Below are positions 51,418 through 63,954 of a DNA stretch of 64,000 bases, in pieces. The notes beneath the pieces are model-generated. The model saw only the letters and a list, made by a program, of their open reading frames with translations, was not told where the DNA came from and searched no databases. The stretch is from assembly GCF_003688665.1 (NCBI RefSeq), contig NZ_REFO01000010.1, positions 434,001 to 498,000 on the forward strand. Direction: 5' to 3'. Numbering within the stretch: position 1 is the stretch's first letter; every line of letters starts with the position of its first letter. Source of the DNA: Hydrogenothermus marinus. Its GTDB lineage: Bacteria > Aquificota > Aquificia > Aquificales > Hydrogenothermaceae. The position numbers were made by a program, and so were the translations under genes.

Positions 51418-52641
51418 TCAACAACTTTGTTTTTCTTTTTTATTTATATATGTATCAAAATAATATTTACCTATATCACCATATAAATCTGAACCTGTTA
51501 TTACGATAGATATTTTATTATTTTTTATGTTTTCTATATTTTCTTTAATTAAGTTTATAACCTTATTATAACCTTCACTAATGGAAACAAAAATATTTTC
51601 CTCAGATTTTAAATTTCCAATTATTAAAATGCTACTTTTAGCATTATGATCTATTTCTGTTTTTAGTTGAAACTCAAACTTTTGGCCTATTTCTATATCT
51701 TTTTTCTCAATTATAAATATTGGATTTGTAATAAATCTTGGTTTATCAAGTTTGATATTTTTTATATTATCTACCATCCATACTTCTACATTTGATTTTT
51801 TAAATCTTAATATAGTTTTATTCTCTTTTTCTATTATATTTTCTACTTTATCTCTTAAAATACCTCTTATTGAGGCAGAATAAGGTAAAACTTCATGAGA
51901 AACTGGTTCTTTTCCTACTTTTACAATAGAATTTAATAATTTCCAGTTTATAAAATTAAACTCTTCTTCATGACATTTTAAACCAAGATTTTCAGCAAAA
52001 AGTCTTATCTTTTTAATTTCTAAAGTCTCTTCTCTACTTCCTGGTAAAATTTCCTTTGAAAAGGATACAAGCTCTGGAATATATTCAAGTCCTTGTCTTT
52101 GTTTAAAAAGTCCATATATACATCCACAATAGTTTTGATGGTAAAGCTCTTTTTCTTTAGAAAGTTCATTCATTTTTTGCATTCCACCGCCTTTTCTAAA
52201 GTTTACAGCTAAAAACTCAAGGTTATATTTGTCAGCTATTCTTTCTCCAATCTCTTTTAAAACTTCAAAATCCTTTTTTGGACTCATCATTAAGACAGTG
52301 GTAAATTTATTAAAACCTTTTTCTTTTGCATAAACAGCAGATTTTTCAAGTCTAATATCATGGCATATACTACATCTTTCGCCTCTTTCTGGCTCATTTT
52401 CATAACCTTTTACTGCCTTAAACCAGTTTTCAATATCATAATCACCTTTTTCACAAGGTATTCCTAAATCATCACATACTCTTTTTGTTTCAATCCATCT
52501 AAGTTCATACTCTTCTTCTGGATGAATATTTGGATCATAAAAATATCCTTCAATATGGCTATTTGGAAAATCTTCTTTTAGCTTTCTTAAAGCCCATACT
52601 GCATCAACACCACAACATATATGAACAAGTATTTTTTCCAT
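51418..52641 (-). CDS. queH: Epoxyqueuosine reductase QueH with a long C-terminal extension
   Basis: 407-residue protein. The N-terminal 190 residues are QueH (DUF208), which reduces epoxyqueuosine in tRNA to queuosine. It has the Cys pair ICCG (Cys9, Cys10), GERCSICHDIR (Cys90, Cys93), and NYCGCIYG near 175. Typical QueH ends at about 200 residues. Residues about 190-407 form an extra part without a motif I know, apart from a short conserved-looking stretch PGSREE near 195. Its role is unknown. Confidence 0.82.
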   Translation of the reverse strand: MEKILVHICCGVDAVWALRKLKEDFPNSHIEGYFYDPNIHPEEEYELRWIETKRVCDDLGIPCEKGDYDIENWFKAVKGYENEPERGERCSICHDIRLEKSAVYAKEKGFNKFTTVLMMSPKKDFEVLKEIGERIADKYNLEFLAVNFRKGGGMQKMNELSKEKELYHQNYCGCIYGLFKQRQGLEYIPELVSFSKEILPGSREETLEIKKIRLFAENLGLKCHEEEFNFINWKLLNSIVKVGKEPVSHEVLPYSASIRGILRDKVENIIEKENKTILRFKKSNVEVWMVDNIKNIKLDKPRFITNPIFIIEKKDIEIGQKFEFQLKTEIDHNAKSSILIIGNLKSEENIFVSISEGYNKVINLIKENIENIKNNKISIVITGSDLYGDIGKYYFDTYINKKEKQSC

Positions 52642-52769: not shown

Positions 52770-53951
52770 ATGAAAAAAGTTATTAAAATTGTTATTATTT
52801 TTATAATTTTTGCTGGTTTAGTAGCAGGTGGAATAACTCTTATAAAAAAAAGGAAACAACAACTTTTAAATGAAAAAACACCAGAAAGACCAATTTATAT
52901 AGTAAGTGGTGTAATACCTAAAAAAGATAAAATAACAGAAAAAAAAGAATTTCTTGGATATATAAAACCTGTAAATACAGTAGATATAAAATCTAAAAAG
53001 CCAGTTTATATTAAGAAAATAAGGGTTGAAATAGGACAACCTGTAAAAAAAGGACAGCTTTTAGTTATTCTTGATGATAAAGATATAAAAACAAAAATTG
53101 AGAATCTAAAATTAGATTTAGAAAACTTAAATAATAAGCTTTCTGCATTAAAAACAAAAGAAAATGCTATTAATGAAGATTTAAAAGAAAAAGAAAGAAT
53201 TTATAAAAGATATTTAAAGCTATATAAAAAAGATTTACTACCAAAAATTGAATTTGAAAAAAGTTATGTAACATATAAATCAGCACAAGCAAATTTAGAA
53301 GAGATAAAATCTAATATTAAACAGCTAAAAAATAATATAGAAAAAATCCAAGAAAATATAAATAATCTAAGAAATGAACTTACTTATTATAAAATTTACT
53401 CACCTACAGATGGCACTATTCAAAATATAATATTAAGAGAAGGAAATTTAGCTTCAACTATAAAACCAATTTTAAAAATTGAAAGTAAAACATATGAAGT
53501 TGATATAAATCTTCCTCAAGATTTTAAATTAAGTAAAAATACAAAAGCATATATTCAAACAGATAGTAAAAAAATATATCTAAAAATAGCTGGATTTTAT
53601 CCATATGCAGAAAGAAATCTTAAAATTTTAAGAACCATATTAAATAAAAAACCTGCAAGTTTAACTTCAAATTCTAATATAAATGTTATTTTAGAAAAGA
53701 CTGTAGAAGGCATAAAACTACCTGTTAATGCAGTTTTACATCTTACAGATGGTACTTATATTCTTGAATATAAAAATGGAAAATTTATAAAAGTTCCTGT
53801 TGTTATCAAAGGTGAAAATAAGGACTACGTAATTGTTGAAGGAAATATAGGAAATAATCCAGTAGCTATCGGTGATGAAAGTAAATTAAGACTTTTAGCT
53901 TCTGGTAGAAAAGCAAAATTAATAACTGGAGAAAGCAAAAATGAACTTTAA
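52770..53951 (+). CDS. RND efflux membrane fusion protein (HlyD/AcrA type)
   Basis: 393-residue periplasmic adaptor with an N-terminal membrane anchor (about 5-23). The biotinyl-lipoyl part (GYIKPVNTVDIKSKKP and VEIGQPVKKGQLLVILDD) flanks a long coiled coil (about 108-205). Beta-barrel domains follow. It joins the inner-membrane pump to an outer-membrane channel, which is not in the window. It overlaps the pump gene by 11 bases. Confidence 0.88.
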   Translation: MKKVIKIVIIFIIFAGLVAGGITLIKKRKQQLLNEKTPERPIYIVSGVIPKKDKITEKKEFLGYIKPVNTVDIKSKKPVYIKKIRVEIGQPVKKGQLLVILDDKDIKTKIENLKLDLENLNNKLSALKTKENAINEDLKEKERIYKRYLKLYKKDLLPKIEFEKSYVTYKSAQANLEEIKSNIKQLKNNIEKIQENINNLRNELTYYKIYSPTDGTIQNIILREGNLASTIKPILKIESKTYEVDINLPQDFKLSKNTKAYIQTDSKKIYLKIAGFYPYAERNLKILRTILNKKPASLTSNSNINVILEKTVEGIKLPVNAVLHLTDGTYILEYKNGKFIKVPVVIKGENKDYVIVEGNIGNNPVAIGDESKLRLLASGRKAKLITGESKNEL

Positions 53952-56900
53952 TATAATTAATCTTGTATTAAAAAGACCTCATTTAATAATATCTTTAATT
54001 CTTGCCTTTATATTACTTGGAATTATAGGATTTTTTAATATAAAACAAAAACTTTTTCCTGATGCAAATAGACCAACAGTTGCAGTAGTTGTTGTTGAAC
54101 CTGGTGCATCTGCTAAGGATATGGCAGAAAATATAGCTCTGCCCATAGAAAGAAGACTTTATACAATTGATAAAGTAAGAACAGTATCATCAACTTCTCT
54201 TGATGAATTTACAGTTATAAAAGCAGAATTTGAGTATGATAAAGACATAAATCAAGCAGTAGTGGATGTTCAAAATGAAGTAAATAAAATAAAATCAAAA
54301 TTACCATCAGATATAAAAGAACCTCAGTATCATAAAATTACAGATGCAACACCACCTGTTTTAGTTTTAGCAGTATATCCAAAAAATAATAGTTTATCCC
54401 TTGCAGATGTTAGACAGATAGCAGAAAACCAAATAAAGGATCAGATTTTAAAATTAAAAGAAGTTGCAAATGTTGATGTTTTTGGAGGATATGAAAAAGA
54501 AGTATTTATTGAAATAGATAAAGATAAACTAAATAAGCTAAATATTCCTTCAAGCGTTGTTCTTGCAAAAATACAACAAACAAACTTAGATATTCCTATT
54601 GGATTTTTAATCTCTAAAAATAATCAGATTTTAGTAAAATCTATAAATAAGGCAAAAAATATAGAGCAATTAAAAAATATACAAATTACAAAAGATATAA
54701 AACTTTCAGATATAGCTAAGGTTAAGTATGACTATTATATTAATAAATCTTTCTTTATAGGAAATGGAAAACCAGCTATAGCATTAGCAGTACAAAGACA
54801 AGCAACAGGTGATACTTTAAAAGCTATTAGTCAAGTAAAAGCTTTAATTCCAAAATTAGAAAAGCAGTTTCCAAATCTTGGATTTGAAATAGCAGATACA
54901 CAAGAAAAGATTATTAGACTTAGTAATATTAATATGCTTGAAGCTCTTAGAGATGCCATAATAATGGTTTCTATTGTTATTTTCTTCTTTTTAGCAAATA
55001 TCAGGCAAATGATAATAGCAGCTATATCTATTCCTTTCGTTTATGCTATTACAATTGGTATTATGTGGATATTAGGACTTGAGTTTCATATAGTAAGTCT
55101 TACTGCAATAATCCTTGCTCTTGGTATGCTAGTAGATGATGCAATAGTTGTTCTTGAAAATATAGAAAGACATTTATATGAATTAAAAGAAGATATAAAA
55201 ACTGCAGTAATAAATGGGACAAAAGAGGTAATATTTGCAGTTTTAGCAGGAACAATTGCAACAACTTCTGTTTTACTTCCATTATTATTTGTTGGCGATT
55301 ATCCAGAAAAAATATTTAGACCTCTTGCATCAACTTTAATAATTGCTGTAATAGTATCTTATTTTGTTTCAATATTTTTTATTCCACTAATAGCTCCATT
55401 TTTATTGAAAAAAGATAATTCAGAAAAAAATATAATAGAAAAAATTACATATAAAATATCTGCCACTATTGTTGAGCCTTTGAAAAATTTATACTCTTCT
55501 ATGGCCAAACTTGCAATGGAAAGAAAAATATTAAGGCCTTTATATTTTATACCATTAATACTTTTATTTGTATTAAGCTTAAAATTAATTATTCCTCTTG
55601 TAGGTAGAGAAATAATGCCTCCTATGGATACAGGAATTGTAAAGGCAACTATAAATCTTGATACAAACCTATCTGTTTATAAAGTTGAAGAAGCTGCAAA
55701 AAAAATAGCTGATATATTAAAAAATGATAAAAGAGTAGAAATGTTTTATATAGCATCAGGTTCTGAACCGGGAATACTCACAATTGGTTCAGGAAATCCA
55801 ACTCAAACTTTATCATTGACTATCCATTATATAGATAGATTCCATAGAAAAGAAAGTATTTGGGATATTGAAGAAGAGTTAAGAAAAAAAATATGGGAAA
55901 ATGTTCCTAATGTAAAATATGTTCAAGTTTTTGATTATGGTGCAACACCACTTTCTTCAATAAAAGGAAACCTTGATATAAGAATAAGTGGCGAAGATTT
56001 AAAAACCCTTGATAAACTTGGAAATAAAGTTCTTGATATTGCATATAACACAAAAGGAATAGTTTCTCTATCAAAAAGCTGGGATTATGACAAAATAATT
56101 TATAAATTAAAAATTGATTATAAAAGAGCATCTTTTTATGGCTTAACACCTTATCAAATAGCATCTCAAATAGGTAAAAAGATTAAAGGAAGCTTTGTTT
56201 CAATATTTAATGTACCAAATGAAAAAAGTTTATTTATAAGGGTAGTTTATCCTGATAAAAACAGAAGTTCTAAACTTGATTTAGCAAGTTATTACATTGA
56301 TACTCCAAAAGGTAAAATACCTTTATTAGAAGTAGCTAAAATAGAAAAAGATGTTGAACCTTCCTTAATTACAAGACAAGATTTAGCCTATACAATAGAT
56401 ATTATCGGATATAGAGAGAAAGCAGCAATTACTCATATTGTAGAAAGCTTTGATAAAGCTTTAGAAAAATCAGGATTTCAAGTGCCAGCAGGATATACAT
56501 TATCCCATGAAGGTGATATAAAACAGCTTAATGATAGTATGAAAAGAATGGTAAAAGCTATAGGATTAGGTATTTTACTTTTATTCTTAGCTCTTGTGCC
56601 AGCCTTTAGCTCATTTTTAGCTCCAATAGCAGTTATATTTGCTATACCTTTATCTGTGATAGGTGCCGCTTGGTCAATACTTGGTGCAGGATTTCACCAA
56701 TCAATGCCAGGAATGATGGGGATAGTTTTACTTGCAGGTATAATTACTAAAAACTCAATTCTATTAATAGATTTTATACATCAAGCATTAAAAGAAGGAA
56801 AATCTTTAAAAGAGGCAGTTATTGGAAGTATAAAATTAAGAACAAGGCCAGTTTTAATGACTGCATTTGGTACTGCAGTTGGAATGATTCCTATTGCTTT

Positions 56901-57030
56901 AGGTTGGGCTTTAGGTCTTGAAAGACTTGCACCTCTTGGAACAGTTGCCATTGGTGGTCTTATTGTTGGTACATTTTTAACTTTAGTATATGTTCCTCTT
57001 TTATACTATATAATGGCAAGAAAAAAATAA
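53941..57030 (+). CDS. RND family efflux pump (AcrB-like, HAE type)
   Basis: 1029-residue proton-driven pump with twelve transmembrane segments and two large periplasmic loops. It starts with a helix ending ILLGIIGFFNI and the loop LFPDANRPTV. The proton relay in helix 4 is seen as LGMLVDDAIVVLENIERH (about 395-412) with two Asp, the HAE1 pattern, and not the metal-type HME. The substrates are unknown. It ends the operon. Confidence 0.9.
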   Translation: MNFNIINLVLKRPHLIISLILAFILLGIIGFFNIKQKLFPDANRPTVAVVVVEPGASAKDMAENIALPIERRLYTIDKVRTVSSTSLDEFTVIKAEFEYDKDINQAVVDVQNEVNKIKSKLPSDIKEPQYHKITDATPPVLVLAVYPKNNSLSLADVRQIAENQIKDQILKLKEVANVDVFGGYEKEVFIEIDKDKLNKLNIPSSVVLAKIQQTNLDIPIGFLISKNNQILVKSINKAKNIEQLKNIQITKDIKLSDIAKVKYDYYINKSFFIGNGKPAIALAVQRQATGDTLKAISQVKALIPKLEKQFPNLGFEIADTQEKIIRLSNINMLEALRDAIIMVSIVIFFFLANIRQMIIAAISIPFVYAITIGIMWILGLEFHIVSLTAIILALGMLVDDAIVVLENIERHLYELKEDIKTAVINGTKEVIFAVLAGTIATTSVLLPLLFVGDYPEKIFRPLASTLIIAVIVSYFVSIFFIPLIAPFLLKKDNSEKNIIEKITYKISATIVEPLKNLYSSMAKLAMERKILRPLYFIPLILLFVLSLKLIIPLVGREIMPPMDTGIVKATINLDTNLSVYKVEEAAKKIADILKNDKRVEMFYIASGSEPGILTIGSGNPTQTLSLTIHYIDRFHRKESIWDIEEELRKKIWENVPNVKYVQVFDYGATPLSSIKGNLDIRISGEDLKTLDKLGNKVLDIAYNTKGIVSLSKSWDYDKIIYKLKIDYKRASFYGLTPYQIASQIGKKIKGSFVSIFNVPNEKSLFIRVVYPDKNRSSKLDLASYYIDTPKGKIPLLEVAKIEKDVEPSLITRQDLAYTIDIIGYREKAAITHIVESFDKALEKSGFQVPAGYTLSHEGDIKQLNDSMKRMVKAIGLGILLLFLALVPAFSSFLAPIAVIFAIPLSVIGAAWSILGAGFHQSMPGMMGIVLLAGIITKNSILLIDFIHQALKEGKSLKEAVIGSIKLRTRPVLMTAFGTAVGMIPIALGWALGLERLAPLGTVAIGGLIVGTFLTLVYVPLLYYIMARKK

Positions 57031-61251: not shown

Positions 61252-63954
61252 TTAGGCTGTAAATTTAGTTTTTATTTTTATTAATTTTCCTTTTCTTTTT
61301 ATATATATAAATTCTCCTTTCTTTAAGAAAGTTAATGCCAACTTCAAATCATATATATTTTTTATTTTCATATCTGAAACTTGAACAATTATATCTTCTT
61401 TTTTTAATCCTAATTTCTCTGCAAGAGAGTTTTTTAAAACTTTCTTAATTATAACTTTTCCATCTTTTTCTTCTATAAATACTCCTAATTTTGGACTTTT
61501 CTTATATCTTATTTTATCCATATAAATTATATAATCTGCTATATTTTTTCTTATTTCGTCATTGTTTAATATTACAACTCCATTTAATTCTGTTCTTCTT
61601 TTAACTCTATCTGGTATTCCATATCTATATCTTAAATGACCATTTCCTGCAAGGATTATAAGTTTATAATCTGGTTTTTGTTTTATAAAGCTTGCTATAG
61701 TTTCTGCCATTGTCTCATCCCATAAAATCTGATTTTCATAAAAATATATAAAATTGCCTTTATTTTTTGAATGCATACTATAAATTATTTTAAGAAATTC
61801 TCTATACTCTTTATTTGAAAAATCTAAGTTTTTAGGAATATATTTTTTATACTTTTCAGATAAACAACCTAATCCACATTTTCTTACTTTTTCTGTTATT
61901 TCTACAGGAAGATTTAAAGCTATAATTTTTATTTTATTTTTTCTTGCAAAATCAAAAATAGGTTTATAAAGTCTATAATCATATCCCCATCTTTTGTAAT
62001 ACTCTATTTTTGACAAAAATTGTTTTTCAGAAATTTTTCCATCTATGTAATTATCAACTACCTGTTGGAAAGGTTTTTGAATCATTTCCATTCCAATTAC
62101 TATTCTTTTATATTTCTTATAAATATTTTTTATAATCTCAAGTTGAATTATATGATCTTCAAACTCAGTATGATTTTCTCCTATGTATATTAATCTTTTA
62201 TTTTTAATATTTTTTAAAAGATTTTGAAAGTTGTAAGCTCCTTTTTGTATATCTACTACTTCTGGTTTATCATAAATATTTTTATAATACTCATAAAAAC
62301 TTATACTCCTTGCCTTTTTTATATCTTTACCAAAAATAACTCCTGTATAATTTCCATAATGATTAGTAGCTAATTTGTATAATTTTTCATCATTTGTTAA
62401 AAATATAAATTTTTTGTTTCCAAGTGGATTTTTAAAAGAATAAACAAATTTTCCTTTTGGTATCTCAAAATTACCAATTATATTTTTCAGATATGAAAAA
62501 TCATTATCTATAAATAAAATATTTTTATTTTCTAAATTAGAAATTTTAAAATTTTTGTTTAATTTATTTACATTTTTTAATCCATAATATAAAAGAGGAT
62601 CTATTTCTTCATCTTTTAAGATCCTAAAAACTTGATATTCTGGATCTATATATATTCTAAATGGGATACTTTTAGTTTTTATTTTTACCTTTTGTTTCTT
62701 ATCTGAGATTTGAATAACTTTCCTTTCTTTTCCATCATTAGTTTCAACTACTACAGGAAGATTTAAAGAAAATTTTTCTTTTTGTATAAAGGTTAAAAAA
62801 ATCTCAAAATGGTCAATATTGTAAATAACATCATTAATTTTAAAACTAAAATCCGGATTGTATGCCTTATTTAACCATTGATTGAAAAATGGCTCTAAAC
62901 TTTTTTTATAGTACTTTTCAATAGATGTTTCTATATCATAAAAACCTACTCTTTTAAACTTATTTTCCTTATAAAATGTTCTAATACCTTCTAAAAATAG
63001 ATTTTTACCAACTAAATTTTCAAGCATATAAAAGAAAAACATACCTTTTCCATAACCAAGAGCTTCATAAGATTTATCTTTTTTATACTTAAAATCCTTT
63101 AAAGGAATATTTTTATTTGCTAAAGCATCATACTTTTCTAAAGTAATTTTTCTATACTCTTTTTTATTTTTTGAAAAATAATAATCAGAAAAATAGGTTG
63201 TTAATCCTTCTGACCAGTTTCCATTTTTACTATCTACATAAATACTACAACCAAACCATTGATGTAAAATCTCATGTGGTAAAGATGAATTAAAAATAAA
63301 ATCTTTATTTATCAAAAAACTAAAAATTGTAGTAAATGTTGGAAATGAAAATCCATAAGGATAAGAAGTCTCAACAATTGAAAATCTTTTGTAAGGAAAT
63401 TTCCCAAACATACTTTCATAATGTTTTATATAATCCTTTGCAAGAAACAATAATTTTATTGTTCCATTTTTATAAAAATATCCATAAATGGTTAAATCAT
63501 CTCTTATTTTTAGTTTCTCTATTTTATAATCTTTTCTTGCAAAAATATTTATTCCTTCTGCTTTATAAGGAAATTCAAAAATATATACATTTTCTTTTTT
63601 TATTATATTTTCTGATTCAGAAATAGGTATAAATCCATTTGGAATTTTTAATTTTAAATGATAATATGCAAGCTCATCTATAGTAGGATAAAAATTCCCA
63701 TCTGAGAAAATAGTTATTTCTTCTTTATAATTTAAATTTCTTGAGAAGAAAATTTTTATCTGATTTTTCTTTTCTTTTATTTTCTTTATTATTAAAACTG
63801 ATTTATAGAAAATTTTTGGTTTTTCTTTATCATAATTAATAGTAGCTATACCATTTAAAGTATTTGCCTGAATATTTAATTCTAAAAAGTAATCTATTTT
63901 TGCAAAAGATAAATTAAAAAGAAACAAAAATATAATAATTATGTATTTTTGCAT
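61252..63954 (-). CDS. Secreted fusion of M1-like metallopeptidase, ChaN-like and PDZ domains
   Basis: 900-residue protein with a signal peptide (1-18). Residues about 20-440 resemble M1 aminopeptidases: zinc site HEILH (227-231) with the third ligand Glu249 in NWSEGL, and GFSFPTFTTI before it. Residues about 585-800 resemble the ChaN/DUF399 heme-related domain (YIGENHTEFEDH, GMEMIQKPFQ, KRWGYDY, LAGNGHLRYRYGIP). Residues about 820-895 are a PDZ domain (LGVFIEE, LGLKKEDIIVQV). I know these domains as separate or paired, but not this triple order. It probably acts in the periplasm or at the outer membrane. Confidence 0.78.
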   Translation of the reverse strand: MQKYIIIIFLFLFNLSFAKIDYFLELNIQANTLNGIATINYDKEKPKIFYKSVLIIKKIKEKKNQIKIFFSRNLNYKEEITIFSDGNFYPTIDELAYYHLKLKIPNGFIPISESENIIKKENVYIFEFPYKAEGINIFARKDYKIEKLKIRDDLTIYGYFYKNGTIKLLFLAKDYIKHYESMFGKFPYKRFSIVETSYPYGFSFPTFTTIFSFLINKDFIFNSSLPHEILHQWFGCSIYVDSKNGNWSEGLTTYFSDYYFSKNKKEYRKITLEKYDALANKNIPLKDFKYKKDKSYEALGYGKGMFFFYMLENLVGKNLFLEGIRTFYKENKFKRVGFYDIETSIEKYYKKSLEPFFNQWLNKAYNPDFSFKINDVIYNIDHFEIFLTFIQKEKFSLNLPVVVETNDGKERKVIQISDKKQKVKIKTKSIPFRIYIDPEYQVFRILKDEEIDPLLYYGLKNVNKLNKNFKISNLENKNILFIDNDFSYLKNIIGNFEIPKGKFVYSFKNPLGNKKFIFLTNDEKLYKLATNHYGNYTGVIFGKDIKKARSISFYEYYKNIYDKPEVVDIQKGAYNFQNLLKNIKNKRLIYIGENHTEFEDHIIQLEIIKNIYKKYKRIVIGMEMIQKPFQQVVDNYIDGKISEKQFLSKIEYYKRWGYDYRLYKPIFDFARKNKIKIIALNLPVEITEKVRKCGLGCLSEKYKKYIPKNLDFSNKEYREFLKIIYSMHSKNKGNFIYFYENQILWDETMAETIASFIKQKPDYKLIILAGNGHLRYRYGIPDRVKRRTELNGVVILNNDEIRKNIADYIIYMDKIRYKKSPKLGVFIEEKDGKVIIKKVLKNSLAEKLGLKKEDIIVQVSDMKIKNIYDLKLALTFLKKGEFIYIKRKGKLIKIKTKFTA

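Follow-up and report, generated by a model that had tools for sequence, protein, structure and literature searches.

Within a 64,000 bp stretch of the Hydrogenothermus marinus genome (hereafter the window; contig NZ_REFO01000010.1, positions 434,001 to 498,000, assembly GCF_003688665.1), one gene encodes a predicted secreted protein in which an M1-like peptidase unit, a ChaN domain and a PDZ domain are joined in a single chain. This triple architecture, proposed in an earlier sequence-only reading, was confirmed, and the protein is probably a periplasmic module with two hydrolase sites acting on peptides or proteins held by the PDZ domain. The data computed were the domains and folds, the conserved catalytic sets, the fused and adjacent-gene forms, the co-occurrence of the parts, the replacement of ChaN by an M28 peptidase and the decay of both sites together. 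The layout of the gene is as follows, in window coordinates.

61252..63954, minus strand: whole gene, secreted M1-like / ChaN (TIKI-fold) / PDZ fusion of 900 amino acids (open reading frame list, Pfam, AlphaFold2)
63901..63954, minus strand: predicted signal peptide, residues 1-18, ending ...LSFA/K, with a hydrophobic stretch and no lipobox (from reading the sequence alone)
62599..63897, minus strand: M1-like three-part unit, residues 20-452 (structural match to F3, 1z1w; PF01433)
62230..62592, minus strand: linker domain, residues 455-575, recovered with the fused proteins by our own profile and confidently modelled
61603..62220, minus strand: ChaN / TIKI-fold domain, residues 579-784 (PF04187; structural matches)
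61264..61494, minus strand: PDZ domain, residues 821-897 (PF13180, PF00595)

The coordinates and frame of the 900 amino acid open reading frame, which starts with ATG, were confirmed, translation bore out the coordinates of its parts, and all three domains exceeded their Pfam cut-offs (Peptidase_M1, Cofac_haem_bdg/ChaN and PDZ_2). An AlphaFold2 model of the full protein, generated from 53 aligned relatives, had a mean predicted local distance difference test (pLDDT) value of 92.1 and a predicted template modelling score of 0.86, and both the M1 and the ChaN folds were matched by known structures. The signal peptide and the absence of a lipobox in the window protein suggest that its location is better put as periplasmic than as the cell surface, where the sequence-only reading had placed it.

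The Peptidase_M1 match (PF01433) covered residues 226-360 (E 7.3e-13, 49.1 bits against a cut-off of 27.7), and in the model the M1-like fold extended far past these limits, over approximately residues 17-452. It superposed on tricorn factor F3 (1z1w), giving a Z score of 24.8 and a root mean square deviation of 3.0 with 413 residues aligned in the model range 17-452. By analogy with M1 structures, the three parts are presumably an N-terminal beta domain, a gluzincin catalytic domain and an Ig-like beta domain. Conservation was assessed in an alignment of fused proteins (A3), for which 53 members were hand-chosen from fused frames and the decayed homologues described below (L187-L189) were not included, so the invariance given here holds for that set.

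63331..63354, minus strand: GFSFPTFT strand, residues 201-208, at the place of the GAMEN motif; G201, P205 and T208 invariant in 53/53
63262..63276, minus strand: HEILH, residues 227-231, putative zinc site; H227, E228 and H231 invariant in 53/53
63208..63210, minus strand: E249, third putative zinc ligand (HEXXHX17E), invariant in 53/53
63052..63054, minus strand: Y301 (in GYGK), putative catalytic tyrosine, invariant in 53/53 and aligned with YGK of F3

In M1 peptidases 18 residues separate the second His of HEXXH from the downstream Glu; in the window protein 17 residues precede E249. The spacing among A3 members was 17 in 49/53, 16 in three and 15 in one, and in 79 motif matches, drawn from 81 M1-bearing frames at 80 loci, it was 17 in 75 and 16 in four; the two frames missed by the motif pattern carry HEXXH too. 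The GAMEN motif was not found, there being a gap at its place in the profile alignment to F3, and no M61 family was among the Pfam matches of the window protein up to E 1. The sequence-only reading had reported HEILH with a Glu after 17 residues, GENH, GNGH and a missing GAMEN, and each was recovered (227-231, E249, 592-595 and 770-773 for the motifs); it had set the spacing against the usual 18, but both the spacing and the missing GAMEN are traits of the family rather than oddities of the window protein. GAMEN grips the free N-terminus in canonical aminopeptidases, so its absence argues against an enzyme of that type, and by its sequence the domain would be M1-like rather than a canonical M1 aminopeptidase.

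The match to Cofac_haem_bdg/ChaN (PF04187) at residues 579-784 was far stronger than its cut-off (E 4.5e-64, 216.8 bits against 27.7). The second half of the full model superposed on Campylobacter jejuni ChaN with a Z score of 25.0, and residues 455-815, modelled separately (pLDDT 91.4), returned the heme-bound C. jejuni ChaN (2g5g) as the top structural match, with a Z score of 25.3 and 235 residues aligned. Behind it, ranks 2-13 were occupied by twelve entries of the TIKI / erythromycin-esterase superfamily with Z scores of 11.6-15.8; these included HopBA1 (15.8), three 'succinoglycan biosynthesis'/BcR135 entries (15.2, 14.8 and 14.5), EreC entries (14.6 and 14.4) and RRSP, PMT and two 'bacterial protein toxin' entries (11.6-12.2), and the next match was FtsY at 9.8. 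As modelled, the ChaN domain is of the TIKI / erythromycin-esterase fold, and residues corresponding to the catalytic tetrad of that fold were located.

62170..62178, minus strand: E593 and H595 in GENH (592-595), first half of the TIKI tetrad, invariant in 53/53
62086..62088, minus strand: E623 (in GMEM), 28 residues past H595, invariant, with the offset of 28 in 53/53
61636..61638, minus strand: H773 in GNGH (770-773), second His of the TIKI tetrad, invariant in 53/53

All four residues of this 2His/2Glu tetrad (E593, H595, E623 and H773) were thus invariant in A3. In extracts of PMC6254334, the corresponding set in VvRRSP, a TIKI-family endopeptidase, is given as Glu-3900, His-3902, Glu-3930 and His-4030, and Bcr135, of the esterase family, has the His-Glu pair His-85 and Glu-113; by this published numbering the H-to-E offset is 28 in both, equal to that of the fused proteins (further background on the TIKI/Ere superfamily in extracts of PMC6254334 and PMC7979712). 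The tetrad was retained in 75/78 further ChaN domains, lone ones included (those longer than 150 residues in L052-L063 and L153-L218, the fragmentary L212 being left out), and the exceptions were L187-L189.

The PDZ domain was recognized by PDZ_2 (PF13180; E 1.1e-7, 32.4 bits against a cut-off of 27.0) and by PF00595 (5.8e-5, above cut-off), with PF17820 below its cut-off, and its nearest solved relatives by sequence were the PDZ domains of DegP/DegQ and of site-2 proteases. A putative peptide loop at 822-825 was partly conserved, residue 824 being Gly in 34/53 and Met in 19. No Pfam family matched the linker at 455-575, and a weak structural match to BcsB (E 0.04) came from a search whose match lists were filled by the ChaN part so that the linker was barely probed.

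The distribution of the architecture was assessed by a contig scan with the M1-like part, from which the best 80 of at least 587 confirmed relatives were taken, so that the counts favour close relatives. Among these 80 loci, 60 were fused M1-ChaN-PDZ, one was fused and cut before the PDZ, and eight had ChaN-PDZ as a separate adjacent gene; the rest were three M1-M28-PDZ loci, five cut by contig ends and three with M1 alone. One fused locus (L074) carried a second M1-like gene. Going by record titles, the fusions belong to Nitrospirota, Deltaproteobacteria/Thermodesulfobacteriota, Campylobacterota and Aquificota, with a few from gammaproteobacteria, and the identical domain order was present in six genera of the Hydrogenothermaceae, the family of the window genome, and in other phyla, at 28-52% identity to the window protein. 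The sequence-only reading had named a common known architecture in advance as what would count against it; the spread over phyla together with the adjacent-gene form shows that the architecture is not unusual and largely bears out that objection, although no description of its function was found. A locus labelled 'uncultured archaeon' (L103) also carries the fusion, and its ChaN groups with Nitrospirota with modest support; this may be a mislabelled bin or a transfer.

Fusion was also scored in genome samples, their group names being inferred from the titles of the centre loci, using an open frame of at least 800 codons as a proxy. Such frames were present in 27/148 genomes from the phylum of L077 (Nitrospirota), 3/121 from the phylum of L123 (Campylobacterota), 6/118 from the phylum of L105 (Thermodesulfobacteriota) and 0/151 from the class of L133 (Gammaproteobacteria). 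The Thermodesulfobacteriota count is 11 minus three decayed and two false frames, the latter being L215, where a 959-codon frame is GC-rich upstream noise ahead of a ChaN-PDZ start, and L218, where an 851-codon frame has no M1 match. The same sample holds a 1312-codon frame (L216:3013-6948, minus strand) that joins M1-ChaN-PDZ to a cation-efflux (CDF) domain, which is either a real fusion or a missing stop. In the class of the window genome, ChaN was present in 88/136 genomes and the M1-like part in 24/136, all 24 lying within the 88, and in the frames read M1 and ChaN were fused, once contig breaks and the disrupted frame of G093 are taken into account; an extra M1 frame in G068, of 601 codons, was too short to hold ChaN. 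ChaN occurred alone at 12 sampled Aquificota loci.

In the gammaproteobacterial sample there were 46 ChaN matches, 26 with PDZ and 20 without, and an M1-like gene lay in the flanks of 14/26 of the former against 0/20 of the latter (Fisher p 4.9e-5, ancestry ignored); the flanks searched were mostly ~4 kb per side, some of them cut by contig ends. The PDZ profile could miss domains, but the 20 ChaN without PDZ have only 36-77 residues after ChaN. Over all 151 gammaproteobacteria, an M1-like match (E up to 1e-30) was present in 23/26 ChaN-PDZ genomes compared with 2/125 others (Fisher p 8.6e-22). Three of the 23 (G570, G586 and G635) have the M1-M28-PDZ form and one (G567) a partial match, and both exceptions among the 125 (G579 and G678) are M1-M28-PDZ; with that form excluded, M1-like matches were present in 20/26 against 0/125 genomes (Fisher p 5.5e-20). 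M1 and ChaN-PDZ travel together.

Eight proteins (L106, L132, L117 and L219-L223; 1101-1162 residues) combine M1, M28 and PDZ in a single chain by Pfam, which indicates that a second peptidase can occupy the ChaN slot. Our own 'm28' profile, which includes the linker, also matched in L074 and L224, neither of which is M28 by Pfam, and weak matches in L214 were uncounted. The M1-M28-PDZ architecture parallels M1-ChaN-PDZ, and G579 and G678 have the former without ChaN-PDZ.

Three genomes of the Thermodesulfobacteriota sample (L187-L189) carry fused homologues without HEXXH, in which both ChaN His residues are lost and Asp stands for E623; there was no PDZ match in these three. Apparently pseudoenzymes at both sites, they are preserved as long open frames of 886, 853 and 890 codons (L187, L188 and L189 respectively). 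The occurrence of the parts both fused and as a gene pair, their co-occurrence across genomes, the replacement by M28 and the loss of both sites together argue for one functional unit.

In the mechanism that we propose, an HtrA-type PDZ domain would bind the substrate, a protein or a peptide, probably at the C-terminus, and would pass it to two active sites located separately within that chain. The first would be the M1-fold zinc site, without the GAMEN anchor for the N-terminus, and the second the TIKI/erythromycin-esterase-type 2His/2Glu site of the ChaN domain; the ChaN site may cut inside the chain and the M1 site may trim the products. Both sites would be active and on the same substrate, presumably peptides or misfolded envelope proteins. 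We put forward only tentatively the broader idea that such proteins form a widespread class of periplasmic proteolytic machine, with two chemically distinct hydrolase centres per chain or gene pair, in which ChaN would act as a peptidase of TIKI type and not as a carrier of heme.

Several observations weigh against the two-hydrolase reading. The M1 part is missing GAMEN, and the C-terminal helical domain of M1 enzymes had no counterpart in the structural matches. Lone ChaN domains keep the tetrad too, so that it does not distinguish the fused form, and in the heme-bound C. jejuni ChaN the aligned positions are occupied by EKH, Glu and His, the H-to-E gap being longer; the tetrad is therefore also compatible with heme binding. 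A basic residue is highly conserved in TIKI proteases according to extracts of PMC6254334. It had no clear counterpart here: position 747 is Glu in 53/53 fused proteins and Arg, Ala or another residue in several separate ChaN, and the match of this column to VvRRSP Arg-4001 is tentative. The double decay was limited to three genomes of one phylum whose proteins are alike. The Fisher p-values take related genomes as independent and so ignore shared ancestry, and 3/26 ChaN-PDZ genomes had no M1-like match, with 12/26 lacking one beside the gene.

The sequence-only reading had suggested peptide or heme handling with substrate choice guided by the PDZ domain and was partly supported: PDZ-guided peptide handling stands up, and the evidence for the heme half consists of the ChaN name and fold. 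Heme or metal handling, in which ChaN would bind heme as in Campylobacter, the M1-like domain would free heme from peptides or proteins and the PDZ would dock, is nevertheless the strongest alternative, and one that we regard as unlikely. The closest fold to the domain is a heme-bound ChaN that shares the tetrad residues, and the frame of L216 runs on into a cation-efflux domain, if this is not a missing stop; against these, the neighbours in the window genome read as smpB, rpsO, pnp and groES/EL, the gene itself aside, no cluster of neighbours rises above 6 of the best 80 loci, and M28 takes the place of ChaN within the same architecture. Heme uptake was considered as the principal explanation and was demoted to a rival as there were no heme genes among the window neighbours read.

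It appears less likely again that the M1-like site alone is catalytic, with ChaN and PDZ serving as scaffold or in substrate recognition. PDZ domains commonly present substrates, and the heme-bound ChaN (by the title of 2g5g) suggests a role for the fold with no known catalysis, but E593, H595, E623 and H773 are strictly conserved, and in L187-L189 their loss accompanies that of the M1 site. The idea that the fusion arose by chance or in assembly and means nothing functionally, towards which the twelve Aquificota loci with ChaN alone might point, is refuted by the recurrence of the same domain order, at the identities given above, in six genera of the family and in other phyla.

The history of the ChaN domain was examined in a tree of 68 rows. 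In it, the 12 lone Aquificota ChaN formed one clade (100/100), which grouped (99/97) with four fused proteins of the genus of the window genome. This topology fits a joint loss of M1 and PDZ in an ancestor of the lone Aquificota ChaN, a suggestion to be read with the weak inner placement (84/63), the long branch (1.0), the midpoint root and the odd composition of some rows, the window protein being one of them. The fused Aquificota proteins did not form one clade, there being 4 label changes of which at least 2 are forced by starred branches; this non-monophyly leaves transfers between phyla open.

The H. marinus genome consists of 1.6 Mb in 18 contigs. Downstream of the gene and on the same strand are what we take, from reading the sequence, to be rpsO and pnp; the divergent upstream neighbour is presumably smpB, followed by groES/groEL. 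A smpB-like neighbour was present in 5 of the best 80 loci, all Aquificota, and was divergent upstream in the one inspected. None of the window neighbours that were read is a heme gene. Two neighbour clusters reached 6 of the best 80 loci, one of them ChaN-PDZ, and none besides the gene itself exceeded that number; the clusters were unnamed by profile, so heme genes are possible at some loci. Promoter-like sites around the gene were no more frequent than in shuffled sequence (29 against 30.6); terminator-like sites numbered 4 against 0.9 in shuffles, all at a single place beyond smpB. ARAGORN detected no tRNA or tmRNA in the window. An anti-phage role was rejected, PADLOC giving no match up to E 0.01, as was a plasmid-borne island: of 26 matching plasmid records none covered 80% of the query, and the best was an adjacent pair in Azoarcus.

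Elsewhere in the window, 51418-52641 (minus strand) encodes a QueH epoxyqueuosine reductase domain at residues 4-177, after which ~230 residues match no Pfam family, and 52770-57030 (plus strand) encodes a membrane-fusion-like protein, with HlyD-type matches below cut-off, and then an AcrB/RND-type pump gene. Outside the window, a Mutator-family transposase lies near a contig end (L031:13415-14320, plus strand); its match begins at profile position 101 and the gene looks shortened.

A PDZ survey of 2019 places PDZ-ChaN ('EreA-ChaN-like'), with 37 proteins from 37 bacteria, among the families that are uncharacterised and not proteases, and in the extracts of it available conserved neighbourhoods are given for three other families only (PMC6411480). 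The term 'peptidase M1' is absent from its main text, and these extracts mention no M1 partner for ChaN-PDZ (PMC6411480). No description of the M1-ChaN-PDZ combination was found in literature titles or abstract openings, which is weak evidence as most subscription journals lie outside the coverage. The present findings name the M1-like part as a partner for the uncharacterised PDZ-ChaN family. Proteins with this architecture are likely to be annotated piecemeal, as in the adjacent Azoarcus pair, which is annotated 'M1 family aminopeptidase' and 'ChaN family lipoprotein'. If ChaN is a TIKI-type peptidase, then the ChaN family as a whole would be largely misnamed. The functional unit argued for above offers a direct way to decide between heme binding and the cleavage of peptides and esters for ChaN outside Campylobacter.

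Among known systems, the PDZ-bearing M61 peptidases, which we take from a figure legend to be the 'APN' family of the PDZ survey, have in common with the window protein a gluzincin-type peptidase joined to PDZ; the window protein is M1 by Pfam, not M61, and to our knowledge M61 proteins have no ChaN domain. The PDZ-ChaN and PDZ-M28 families of the survey, as described in extracts of PMC6411480, have PDZ joined to ChaN or to M28, as in the proteins here. The M1 aminopeptidases F3, PepN of Escherichia coli and ERAP1 share the N-terminal fold, and these together with LTA4 hydrolase have HEXXH, a downstream Glu and a catalytic Tyr in common with it; the window protein differs in having the Glu after 17 rather than 18 residues, in lacking GAMEN, and in that linker, ChaN and PDZ stand where M1 enzymes have their C-terminal helical domain. 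The C. jejuni ChaN (2g5g) is like the window domain in fold (Z 25.3), in Pfam profile and in its EXH, Glu and His positions, but the window domain sits in a longer chain beside M1-like and PDZ domains, and heme binding by it would be putative. The TIKI/erythromycin-esterase superfamily members EreC (6xcq), Bcr135 (3b55) and VvRRSP (5w6l) have only 13-17% identity to the window domain in structural alignments and a conserved basic residue without a clear counterpart in it, yet they match it in fold (Z 14.6, 14.8 and 12.1 respectively), in the tetrad and in the H-to-E spacing of 28.

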